Positions 16,538 to 20,869 of a stretch of DNA of 46,503 nt are shown one piece after another. The stretch lies in contig CALLBC010000103.1 in NCBI GenBank assembly GCA_938001965.1, positions 1 to 46,503 of the forward strand. The letters are read 5' to 3'. The translations under genes were made by a program, and so were the position numbers. Every line of letters begins with the position of its first letter. Position 1 is the first letter of the stretch. The notes beneath the pieces are model-generated. The model was not told the origin of the DNA and searched no databases. It saw only the letters and a program-made list of their open reading frames with translations. The DNA comes from an uncultured Bdellovibrionales bacterium (GTDB lineage: Bacteria > Bdellovibrionota > Bdellovibrionia > Bdellovibrionales > UBA1609).

Positions 16538-16705
16538 TCAGTTTTCAGATTTAAAAAATTTGTAAGCTGGACAAAAGCCCCAACTGCCAGTGAGTAAAAG
16601 GTATATACCCAAGTAAGCAAGGGTTGGGCCGCCACTAGCTGCCCAAAAGACTAGGCAGAAACCGAGTATTATTCTGATAAATTTATCAATGGGTATTAAC
16701 TGCAT
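16538..16705 (-). CDS. Small DUF2892 / YgaP-TM-like membrane protein (55 aa)
   Basis: Manual translation MQLIPIDKFIRIILGFCLVFWAASGGPTLAYLGIYLLLTGSWGFCPAYKFFKSEN*; TAATG overlap with the grxD stop; absent from the ORF track. Confidence 0.8.
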   Translation of the reverse strand: MQLIPIDKFIRIILGFCLVFWAASGGPTLAYLGIYLLLTGSWGFCPAYKFFKSEN

Positions 16706-17019
16706 TAGTCAGCAAGAAGTGTTTTAAGTTCACCTGATTCAAACATTTCCATCATTATGTCACTTCCACCAACTAACTTTTTATTAACATAAAGTTGTGG
16801 AATAGTTGGCCACTGACCGTAAACCTTAATGCCCTCGCGAATCTCATCGTCTTCTAATACATTTACAGAATCAAACTCTGCTCCAATTTCATTTAAAATG
16901 GCAATTGATCTTGCTGAAAACCCACACTGTGGAAAGCTAGGTGTTCCTTTCATAAATAAAACAATTTTATTATCAGTTAATGTTTTTTCAATTTTTTCAT
17001 GGGTTGGTGATGTAGTCAT
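16705..17019 (-). CDS. grxD: Monothiol glutaredoxin, Grx4 family
   Basis: FMKGTPSFPQCGFSARSI (CGFS), WPTIPQLYVNKKLVGGSDI. Confidence 0.96.
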   Translation of the reverse strand: MTTSPTHEKIEKTLTDNKIVLFMKGTPSFPQCGFSARSIAILNEIGAEFDSVNVLEDDEIREGIKVYGQWPTIPQLYVNKKLVGGSDIMMEMFESGELKTLLAD

Positions 17020-17036
17020 AATTAATAAATCCTTTT

Positions 17037-17261
17037 TTAAAATAATTTAATAGAGAGGGCATGAATTTCGCCACTTTTTAATTGTTCGTCAAATAAGCCC
17101 ATGATTGATTTGTGCTTTTCAATTCGTGAAAGGCTGGCATCAAAAGCGCTATTGTTCATACGCACTTCAAAATTGCTACCAGATCCAGTTACATCAACCA
17201 CGGCCAATTCAGCGTTAGGGTATTGTTTTTTTAGTGTATTTTCCATTTCAATATGTGTCAT
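17037..17261 (-). CDS. bolA: BolA family protein
   Basis: NSAFDASLSRIEKHKSIMGLFDEQLKSGEIHALSIKLF matches the BolA core; adjacent to the CGFS glutaredoxin. Confidence 0.92.
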   Translation of the reverse strand: MTHIEMENTLKKQYPNAELAVVDVTGSGSNFEVRMNNSAFDASLSRIEKHKSIMGLFDEQLKSGEIHALSIKLF

Positions 17262-17344: not shown

Positions 17345-17617
17345 ATGTATTACGAATCTTCAAGTCCAGAGCATAAGGCCAAAGAACGAGCAAAAGCGCG
17401 TAAATTAAGGCAGTCCACATGGTGGCAAAATCAGCTGTCAAAAGGCTTTTGTTATTACTGTGATCAGAGGTTTGAAAAGGACGTTTTGACCATGGACCAT
17501 AAGGTGCCAGTGGCTAGGGGCGGGGTTTCTAGCAAGTCTAATGTTGTTGTTGCCTGCAAAGAATGTAATACAAATAAAAAGCATTTAACCCCTGCTGAAA
17601 TGATTTTTAACTCATAA
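17345..17617 (+). CDS. Small HNH endonuclease-domain protein
   Basis: CYYC...LTMDHKVPVARGG...SNVVVACKECNTNK. Confidence 0.88.
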   Translation: MYYESSSPEHKAKERAKARKLRQSTWWQNQLSKGFCYYCDQRFEKDVLTMDHKVPVARGGVSSKSNVVVACKECNTNKKHLTPAEMIFNS

Positions 17618-17786: not shown

Positions 17787-19637
17787 TTGGGTAAAATTAC
17801 GAAAAGTAGTACTGCGGAGTATTTTGCAAAAAATCTACAACAAGTAGGTTTCTCTTCCCCGTTAAAAGCTGTTTTAACAACATTAAAAGAGGCTGTGGAT
17901 AACTCACTGGATGCCTGTGAAGAAGCGGGCATAGCCCCTGAACTAAAGGTTTCAATTAAAAAAGTGGGCAAAGGGTCTGCTAGAAGTACAGATTTAATTC
18001 AAATCATTGTGGAAGACAACGGACCAGGTTTAGAGGAAAAAGATTTACCACAAGTTTTTGGTGAATATTTAGCCTCTTCAAAGTTTGGTCGAGGGCAGTG
18101 TTCTCGTGGGCAACAAGGTATTGGTATTTCTGCTGCAACCACTTGGGCGCAGTTAACTAATGCAACTGGTGTAAAAGTAACTAGTAAGACAAAAAGAATG
18201 CGTAAAGCCGTTAACGCCACTATTGATGTTGATATTAAGGGTAACAAAGGTTTACTTAAAAATAAAAAAACCATTGAATGGAAAAAAACGAATGGTCTAA
18301 GAGTTGATTTTAAGATTGATGGCCGTATCCAGTTAAATGGCGATGGTGGGATTTTAACTTATCTTGAAGGAACAACTTTAGTTAACCCCCATTTAACACT
18401 TGAATATGAATTATTAGATAATGAAAAAGTAAGAGTGGAGAGAGTATCTAACGATGTGCCAAAGGTTCCAGCTTCAACTTTACCTCATCCACATACAATG
18501 AAGCTGGGTGAATTTTTAACTCATGCTCATTTGTATGGTAATTTAACTTTAGCACAGTTTATGAAGAAAGCCTTTTCTCGTGTAACTGATGCAACTATTA
18601 AAGATTGTGTTCGCAATGGTATGCCAAAAAAATTGGCCACAATGCCAGTAAAAAAAATACCTGAAAAAGAATTTAAAACAATATTTCAAGCTATTCAAAG
18701 CACAGAGCTTGCCAATCCTTCAACTAAATCAGTTTTAACAGTTGGTGAAGAGGGCTTAGCCAAAAGTATTCACAGAATCGGTGAAGTAGACTTTTTTAGT
18801 GTTGTTACGAGAAAGCCTAAAATTTGCGATTTTAAGCCAACAGTGGTTGAGGTGGCTATTGCTAGATTCTTGGATAAAAAAGCAGCTGCCGAAGAGCAGT
18901 CTATTCAGTTATTAAGATTTGCAAACAGAGTTCCATTACAGTTTGATAAATCAGCCTGTGCAATTACGCGTGCGGTTGAGTCAGTGAATTGGCGCTCCTA
19001 TGGATTGGCTCAATCCAAACGTAGCTTGCCGCAAGGACCATATGTTTTTGCTATTAGTGTGACGTCACCATTTATTAAATTTAAAAATGCGTCCAAAGAA
19101 ACTATTGATGCGAGTGATGACTTAGTGGAAGAATTAAGACGAGCACTCATGCAAGCTGGTCAAAAGCTTTCCCGTCACATTAAGCGTGAAGATAAGGCTG
19201 CGGACCTAGAAAGAAAGCGTGCCCATATTGAAAAATTTGGACCTATTTTAGTTGAAGGTTTAGCTAAAATTGCCGGCGCTGGTAAGGACCGTAAAAATAA
19301 AGCCACAGAAGGCCTATTAAAGTTATTGGGCCGCGAAAGTAAAGCGGCTGAAAAAGACCTTAAAAATGCTGAAGACCGTTTATCATTATTAAAAGATAAA
19401 CAAGCAGCTAAGCTTGGCCGCATTAGAAAAAAAGAGGCGGAAACAGCAGAAGAGGTTGAAGGCACCGAGGAAGCTGCTCTTCCAGTGAAAAAAGCTAAGG
19501 CAAAAAAGAAATCAAAAGCCAAGAAAAAAACTAAAACAAAAAAGAAAGCAGCCAAAAAGAAAGCGGCTAAGAAAAAAACAAAAAAGAAAGCTGCAAAAAA
19601 GAAAACTAAAGCAAAGAAAAAGAAATCAAAACGATAA
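17787..19637 (+). CDS. top6B: DNA topoisomerase VI subunit B with a Lys/Ala-rich C-terminal tail
   Basis: GHKL ATPase motifs LKEAVDNSLDACEEAG, VEDNGPGL and GQQGIGISAATTW; Topo VI-B type stretch FANRVPLQFDKSACAITRAVESVNWRSYGL; TTG start with AGGAG upstream. Confidence 0.96.
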   Translation: MGKITKSSTAEYFAKNLQQVGFSSPLKAVLTTLKEAVDNSLDACEEAGIAPELKVSIKKVGKGSARSTDLIQIIVEDNGPGLEEKDLPQVFGEYLASSKFGRGQCSRGQQGIGISAATTWAQLTNATGVKVTSKTKRMRKAVNATIDVDIKGNKGLLKNKKTIEWKKTNGLRVDFKIDGRIQLNGDGGILTYLEGTTLVNPHLTLEYELLDNEKVRVERVSNDVPKVPASTLPHPHTMKLGEFLTHAHLYGNLTLAQFMKKAFSRVTDATIKDCVRNGMPKKLATMPVKKIPEKEFKTIFQAIQSTELANPSTKSVLTVGEEGLAKSIHRIGEVDFFSVVTRKPKICDFKPTVVEVAIARFLDKKAAAEEQSIQLLRFANRVPLQFDKSACAITRAVESVNWRSYGLAQSKRSLPQGPYVFAISVTSPFIKFKNASKETIDASDDLVEELRRALMQAGQKLSRHIKREDKAADLERKRAHIEKFGPILVEGLAKIAGAGKDRKNKATEGLLKLLGRESKAAEKDLKNAEDRLSLLKDKQAAKLGRIRKKEAETAEEVEGTEEAALPVKKAKAKKKSKAKKKTKTKKKAAKKKAAKKKTKKKAAKKKTKAKKKKSKR

Positions 19638-19705
19638 AATTTATTTAAACAAATAGTGCCTGAGAAAATAAATGCTAAGAGCAGAGCCTTGGGCTAAGGT
19701 AAAAC

Positions 19706-20869
19706 ATGCCAAAGATTAGAGTTAGAAAATTAGATAAAGACATTCCAAAAGCAGCCAAGGCATTATGTGATGAGATGTTGCAATCTCTTGAAAAAGGTCA
19801 GAGGCCTTCATTGCAAGCCATTAAATGTTCTCTTGATAATTCAATTTATAAAGCATCAAAAGGTTACTTTACTCCTGGTGATAAAAAAGTAACTACCGAG
19901 TTGAATGTATCTTCCGTGCAAAAATTATCACGAACAATATTTTTATTAGATATTATGCTTAATAATTTAAAAATGGGTATTGTGAATACGAAAAGGGAGC
20001 TTTACTATATCGCAAAAGGTGCCTCAAAAAATGAGCCCAATCTTAAACCACTTAACATTCAAGAGCAGTCTGAAACAGACTCTGTGATTAGTTACATCAC
20101 TGACTTATTGGAGGTTTACCGCGAGGAGCTTAATTGTCATGCTGGTGATAAAGGTGGGCAAACCTTTTCTAAAAATCTAATTGTAACAGAAACTTTAGTA
20201 GATGGTTCTAAAGCGGTAATGGATTTAAGCACAATGGGAACAGTGGCCTTTCAGCCGCCCAATAAACCCCATGTATTTAAGTTAAAAGCCAAGAAAAAGA
20301 AACTTGATTTTTGTTTAGTGATTGAGTCAGAGGGTACGGCTAATACTTTAGTGACGAATGGCTTTACAAAGCGTAATAACTGCATTGTTGTGGGTGCTGG
20401 TGGTGTGCCAACTAATGGTGTGCGTGGCTGGTGTAAAACTATTCAAGACCAGTTAAAAATCCCGATATACTTTTATGGCGATCTCGATGCCTATACCATT
20501 CAAAATATTTATAGAACTTTAAAAGCGGGCTCTGCAGCCAGCCTTATTAGAAATGCTGATTTTTCAGCGCCTGATGTAAAATTCTTAGGTGTATTACCTC
20601 ATGATATAAAAAAGTATAATCTAGATTGTTACCCTGTGTCTGAAAAGAATTCTAGTGATGCTAGAGCTTTAAAAAAGGCAAAGGACGCTTTAGAGAGAGA
20701 TCCATTTTTTTCTGATAAGAAAAATAAAAAGTTAGCTGATGTATTAAGATGGTTGATTAAGCAAAAAATACGTTGTGAGCAACAGGCTATTTTTGCTGTT
20801 GATCCAAAAGATCCACTAATGTCTGAAAAAATTATTTTAGATAAGATTAAAAGAAAAGATTTTATTTAA
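19706..20869 (+). CDS. top6A: DNA topoisomerase VI subunit A (Spo11-like)
   Basis: Catalytic Tyr region NTKRELYYIAKG; Toprim VIESEGTANTLV and YFYGDLDAYTIQNIYRTLKAGS; directly downstream of top6B. Confidence 0.95.
   Translation: MPKIRVRKLDKDIPKAAKALCDEMLQSLEKGQRPSLQAIKCSLDNSIYKASKGYFTPGDKKVTTELNVSSVQKLSRTIFLLDIMLNNLKMGIVNTKRELYYIAKGASKNEPNLKPLNIQEQSETDSVISYITDLLEVYREELNCHAGDKGGQTFSKNLIVTETLVDGSKAVMDLSTMGTVAFQPPNKPHVFKLKAKKKKLDFCLVIESEGTANTLVTNGFTKRNNCIVVGAGGVPTNGVRGWCKTIQDQLKIPIYFYGDLDAYTIQNIYRTLKAGSAASLIRNADFSAPDVKFLGVLPHDIKKYNLDCYPVSEKNSSDARALKKAKDALERDPFFSDKKNKKLADVLRWLIKQKIRCEQQAIFAVDPKDPLMSEKIILDKIKRKDFI

Follow-up and report, generated by a model that had tools for sequence, protein, structure and literature searches.

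A topoisomerase VI gene pair in a Bdellovibrionales bacterium that most likely works in place of topoisomerase IV

Topoisomerase VI, an enzyme of the archaeal and plant type, is sparsely distributed among bacteria in general, and the presence of its two genes, top6B and top6A, on the chromosome of an uncultured member of the Bdellovibrionales raises the question of which cellular task the enzyme serves there and how it came to reside in this lineage. The gene pair is located in a stretch of 46,503 nucleotides (contig CALLBC010000103.1 of assembly GCA_938001965.1), here referred to as the window. An earlier note, made from the letters of this stretch, had described a complete top6B-top6A operon at positions 17787-20869, and the open reading frames, domains and functional residues are all present there (Table 1). 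Both reading frames are intact, lie on one strand and are separated by a gap of 68 bp. The sequence bears out both the existence of the gene pair and its naming as topoisomerase VI, an enzyme of a known kind from a known lineage.

Table 1. Coordinates of the topoisomerase VI genes, of selected functional elements and of one recurring neighbour in the window
Feature	Position	Strand	Remarks
top6B (DNA topoisomerase VI subunit B; GHKL ATPase and transducer)	17787..19637	+	TTG start, 616 aa
top6A (DNA topoisomerase VI subunit A; winged helix and Toprim)	19706..20869	+	ATG start, 387 aa
Top6B Lys-rich C-terminal tail, residues 567-616	19485..19634	+	from sequence; varies among relatives
Catalytic Tyr101 codon, Top6A motif RELYY	20006..20008	+	opposite S. 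shibatae Y106; invariant in alignment
Top6A Toprim Glu207 codon	20324..20326	+	invariant in alignments
Top6A Toprim D259-L-D261 codons	20480..20488	+	invariant in alignments
Top6B ATPase N-box, E35 ... N39	17889..17903	+	from alignment
Top6B transducer Lys437 codon	19095..19097	+	opposite S. shibatae K427
Small HNH endonuclease gene, 5' of top6B	17345..17617	+	recurring neighbour

The assignment of both proteins to topoisomerase VI is far beyond chance. Top6B possesses the Pfam domains HATPase_c and Topo-VIb_trans (PF09239, 3.4e-45) and exceeds the cut-offs of two NCBIfam models (TIGR01052 top6b, 392 bits versus 380.7; NF003218, 510 bits versus 274), while Top6A possesses the domains TP6A_N and TOP6A-Spo11_Toprim (PF21180, 7.2e-37) and has NF003335 (topoisomerase VI subunit A) as its top NCBIfam model, with an E-value of 4e-108 and a score of 362 bits that falls short of the cut-off of 424. 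Sequence searches of the PDB retrieved the Top6A protein of M. jannaschii (2e-28) and the Top6B protein of M. mazei (9e-77). When an AlphaFold model of Top6A (pLDDT 74, pTM 0.73) was compared with the PDB, the A subunit of topoisomerase VI ranked first (3.9e-18), followed by Spo11; the TM-scores are only about 0.5, and the domain arrangement of this model is therefore unreliable.

Alignments with archaeal structures and with relatives revealed that the hallmark motifs noted earlier are intact in both subunits, without loss of the catalytic tyrosine, the acidic Toprim residues or the ATP-binding residues. The winged-helix domain of Top6A carries its catalytic tyrosine behind an R-E/D pair, as is characteristic of topoisomerase VI (R97, E98, Y101), and the Toprim glutamate and DxD motif are found in the same subunit (E207, D259, D261); these functional residues are invariant or nearly so among the relatives. 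Top6B contains the glutamate and asparagine of the Bergerat ATPase N-box (E35, N39), the DxGxG motif (D77, G79, G81; DNGPG), the RGQQGIG loop and the ATP-sensing lysine of the transducer domain (K437), and its ATP-site residues and K437 do not vary across 18 aligned sequences. The window proteins share all compared catalytic and ATP-site residues, as well as the domain order, with the archaeal enzymes of M. jannaschii, M. mazei and S. shibatae, but the identity of the A subunits is only 24-30%, the clade of the window sits on a long stem branch, and Top6B has a basic low-complexity end with no M. mazei-like Ig-like C-terminal domain apparent from its sequence. In the genome of a sister species from the same genus (G110, 99% complete), Top6A (L090:5873-7036, minus strand) reads RGFFY in place of the conserved R-E/D-x-Y-Y motif; the catalytic tyrosine is retained and the acidic residue is gone.

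The Top6B protein of the window ends in a Lys-rich tail of 50 residues that is preceded by an acidic linker. Among the relatives, the length of this tail varies from none to more than 200 residues, and by the measure used it reaches a length of at least 25 residues and a Lys plus Arg share of at least 30% in 24 of 93 cases. The repetitive DNA encoding it may account for the fact that several assemblies break between top6B and top6A. Neither the RGFFY variant of Top6A nor the hypervariable Lys-rich tail of Top6B was found in the literature searched.

The description of topoisomerase VI as sparse in bacteria holds for bacteria generally; it does not hold for the order Bdellovibrionales, in which 133 of 141 genomes contain Top6A, genomes of only 1.2-1.5 Mb among them. 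A true loss of Top6A is unsupported for four of the eight remaining genomes (G135, G073, G042, G095), where Top6B lies beside a contig end. The completeness of three of the eight is between 64 and 76%, and a fifth genome beyond the four named (G033) lacks both subunits along with the aconitase gene that adjoins topoisomerase VI in a congener, which suggests an assembly gap and leaves a true loss of the enzyme unsupported there as well. In a GTDB scan, the named organisms among the best 80 of at least 505 confirmed relatives belong to the Bdellovibrionales or Bdellovibrionota and include B. bacteriovorus strain kdesi (68% identity in Top6A), a selection that says little about other phyla.

In each of the 66 loci examined, the genes for the B and A subunits are adjacent and share one strand; their recurring neighbours are an HNH gene, a glutaredoxin gene and an aconitase gene. 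The HNH gene is present upstream in 26 of the 63 loci with enough upstream sequence and is not always immediately adjacent. A BolA gene (PF01722) and that of a monothiol glutaredoxin lie next to each other (window positions 16705-17261, minus strand) and likewise recur near topoisomerase VI in the order, and a gene for a GyrI-like domain protein (PF06445; 29831-30364, minus strand) is found about 9 kb away, a similar-looking reading frame being present near topoisomerase VI at another locus (L205). The GC3 of the top6 pair (0.26-0.27) is similar to that of its neighbours. Searches for topoisomerase VI gave no match in a phage collection, three haloarchaeal megaplasmids only among plasmids, and a single 482-kb contig in a viral collection; a promoter scan of the locus remained at chance level. 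The near-universal presence in the order, the recurring flanks, the host-like GC3 and the lack of a phage match bear out the earlier view of a resident pair free of any mobile-element signature, and vertical inheritance within a divergent Bdellovibrionota clade is the best explanation for its presence in the window.

The earlier note had asked about a role of topoisomerase VI alongside gyrase and topoisomerase IV, and this premise was not borne out. Family searches of the host genome for the genes of both enzymes detected one GyrA-family gene (GyrA box QKRGGKG; tyrosine in the motif AAxRYTE) directly beside one GyrB-family gene (G000:C33), and no second PF00521 or PF00204 gene that would represent ParC or ParE. 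Since the assembly is 96.9% complete, a missed parC/parE pair is unlikely. No genome of the order yielded a second full-length GyrA/ParC gene in these searches, and the five double matches seem to be pieces of a single gene. With no topoisomerase IV detected, topoisomerase VI is probably the chromosome decatenase and most likely a substitute for topoisomerase IV, not its companion.

This situation is already known from B. bacteriovorus, which according to Allen and Maxwell (2024; PMC11302465) has gyrase and topoisomerase VI, lacks topoisomerase IV, and was proposed to employ topoisomerase VI as a substitute decatenase. The same authors mention an unpublished result in which M. mazei topoisomerase VI complements an E. 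coli parE(ts) mutant (PMC11302465). The enzyme of B. bacteriovorus (Bd2864 region) resembles that of the window in operon structure and type, and its genome (G011) likewise contains one GyrA-type gene; it belongs to a different family of the same order, and the Top6B tail of the window is longer and richer in lysine. A review lists Bd2864 as topoisomerase VI and Bd0005 as topoisomerase IV (PMC11318664). As a single GyrA-family gene was found in each Bdellovibrio genome, Bd0005 may in fact stand for gyrase. The main text of a Bdellovibrio Tn-seq paper does not mention topoisomerases (PMC6561027), and the literature searched yielded no study in which a bacterial topoisomerase VI had been tested biochemically or genetically.

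We consider it very probable that the window encodes a bona fide type IIB topoisomerase, with an expected A2B2 composition, that is vertically inherited and would perform the decatenation and the relaxation of positive supercoils otherwise attributed to topoisomerase IV. In such an enzyme, the Tyr101 residues of two A subunits would hold a double-strand break through which the other duplex is passed in an ATP-driven manner; topoisomerase VI would thus unlink the sister chromosomes, while gyrase would keep up negative supercoiling. The basic tail of Top6B might, as a guess, serve as a non-specific DNA tether.

Across the phylum, the two enzymes are divided among families. Among 172 genomes drawn from the phylum outside the order, 77 contain topoisomerase VI and 95 do not. 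A single GyrA-family gene is present in 71 of the 77, whereas at least two are present in 73 of the 95, and 70 of these 73 belong to one family (f17). This is the largest family without topoisomerase VI: 70 of its 76 genomes possess at least two GyrA-type genes, and none contains topoisomerase VI. Three f17 genomes were checked, and the additional copy in these is a short ParC-like protein of about 480 amino acids whose gene adjoins a ParE-like gene. An equivalent cellular role is proposed for topoisomerase IV of f17, but it is a type IIA enzyme with another A-subunit architecture and was not found in the order of the window. The association of topoisomerase VI with GyrA-type copy number is strong (Fisher p = 4e-23, 169 genomes outside the order), in a test that ignores the relatedness of these genomes. 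In most cases, families with topoisomerase VI carry just one GyrA-type gene, and topoisomerase VI regularly takes the place of topoisomerase IV across the phylum.

Additional GyrA matches were encountered in four genomes with topoisomerase VI. Two of these are split genes (G142, G184), and the other two, both from family f15 (G159, G166), contain an additional GyrA-type gene or fragment that is possibly contamination. The extra gene of G159 (L118:541-3378), which occurs together with topoisomerase VI, encodes a GyrA-type protein of 946 amino acids with a gyrase-type C-terminal propeller and an insertion that separates the two parts of its catalytic domain; this is possibly an insert or, again, contamination.

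The split between the two enzymes follows a few large clades and therefore reflects few independent events; the deep branches of the GyrA tree are weak and do not resolve the number of switches to topoisomerase VI or its gains and losses. In the Top6A tree, the window type forms one clade (100/100) with a long stem that comprises many families of the phylum, and its members are 62-83% identical to the protein of the window; the identity to archaeal enzymes is about 30%. Two families (f14, f18) form a separate Top6A group that is 54-59% identical to the M. jannaschii protein and only 30-33% identical to that of the window. Their archaeal-type topoisomerase VI (L063-L068, L087) resembles that of the window in the adjacency of the B and A genes (seen at L087, the locus examined) and in the single GyrA-type gene of the genomes, and it had no match in viral contigs. 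The tree sampled bacteria from this phylum alone and a small set of five archaeal sequences, of which three were segments taken over from HMMER alignments, so that it does not settle the origins of the two groups. Allen and Maxwell (2024) likewise concluded that the enzyme had passed from archaea to bacteria at least twice, and they had difficulty placing the Top6B protein of B. bacteriovorus (PMC11302465). A broader reading, which we offer tentatively and regard as possible though less than even in its chances, would hold that topoisomerase IV has been displaced at least twice in this phylum, once by the divergent bacterial-type enzyme and once by the archaeal-type enzyme of f14 and f18, with topoisomerase VI as the sole dedicated decatenase and a fast-evolving Lys-rich Top6B tail tethering DNA.

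Gyrase-only bacteria are known, for example the mycobacteria, and for bacteria without topoisomerase IV it has been proposed that gyrase takes on both decatenation and relaxation. Topoisomerase VI could be a catalytically competent but auxiliary enzyme in cells of this sort. Its particular task might then be, for example, the filamentous replication of multiple chromosome copies in predatory Bdellovibrio or the relief of transcription-induced supercoils. The small-genome families f13 and f21 (G143, G158 and others), with one GyrA and neither topoisomerase VI nor topoisomerase IV, speak for this explanation, as gyrase by itself is apparently enough for a bacterium to survive. Against it stand the near-universal retention of topoisomerase VI in the order, even in genomes of 1.2-1.5 Mb, and its reciprocal distribution with topoisomerase IV, and we judge the auxiliary role unlikely.

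Far less probable still is a Spo11-like or other DNA-cleaving machine acting in recombination or defence, perhaps together with the nearby HNH nuclease. The A subunit does resemble Spo11, defence-system models gave only a weak similarity to the Toprim of JetD (20 bits), and the HNH gene recurs upstream. A Spo11 protein would come without a complete, ATPase-competent Top6B partner, but each of the 66 loci also encodes a full Top6B whose ATPase and transducer are intact. Moreover, defence genes do not normally become fixed across an entire order, no further family of such genes was found beside topoisomerase VI, and the HNH gene is often absent. Least credible of all is a recent horizontal acquisition from archaea that is carried by chance, since the entry of archaeal-type enzymes into the phylum, documented by f14 and f18, is countered for the window type by its single clade (100/100), the identity of 62-83% to the window within it, its recurring neighbours and its host-like GC3.

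That Bdellovibrio has topoisomerase VI was already known; what is new here is how regularly the enzyme replaces topoisomerase IV across the phylum. Neither this phylum-level split nor the second type of topoisomerase VI was found in the literature searched, a limited library. In our view, the seemingly sporadic occurrence of topoisomerase VI in bacteria thereby becomes a clean case in which whole families use this enzyme where their relatives use topoisomerase IV. As Bdellovibrio can be cultured and is genetically tractable, a proposed function of topoisomerase VI as a bacterial decatenase can be put to a direct test.
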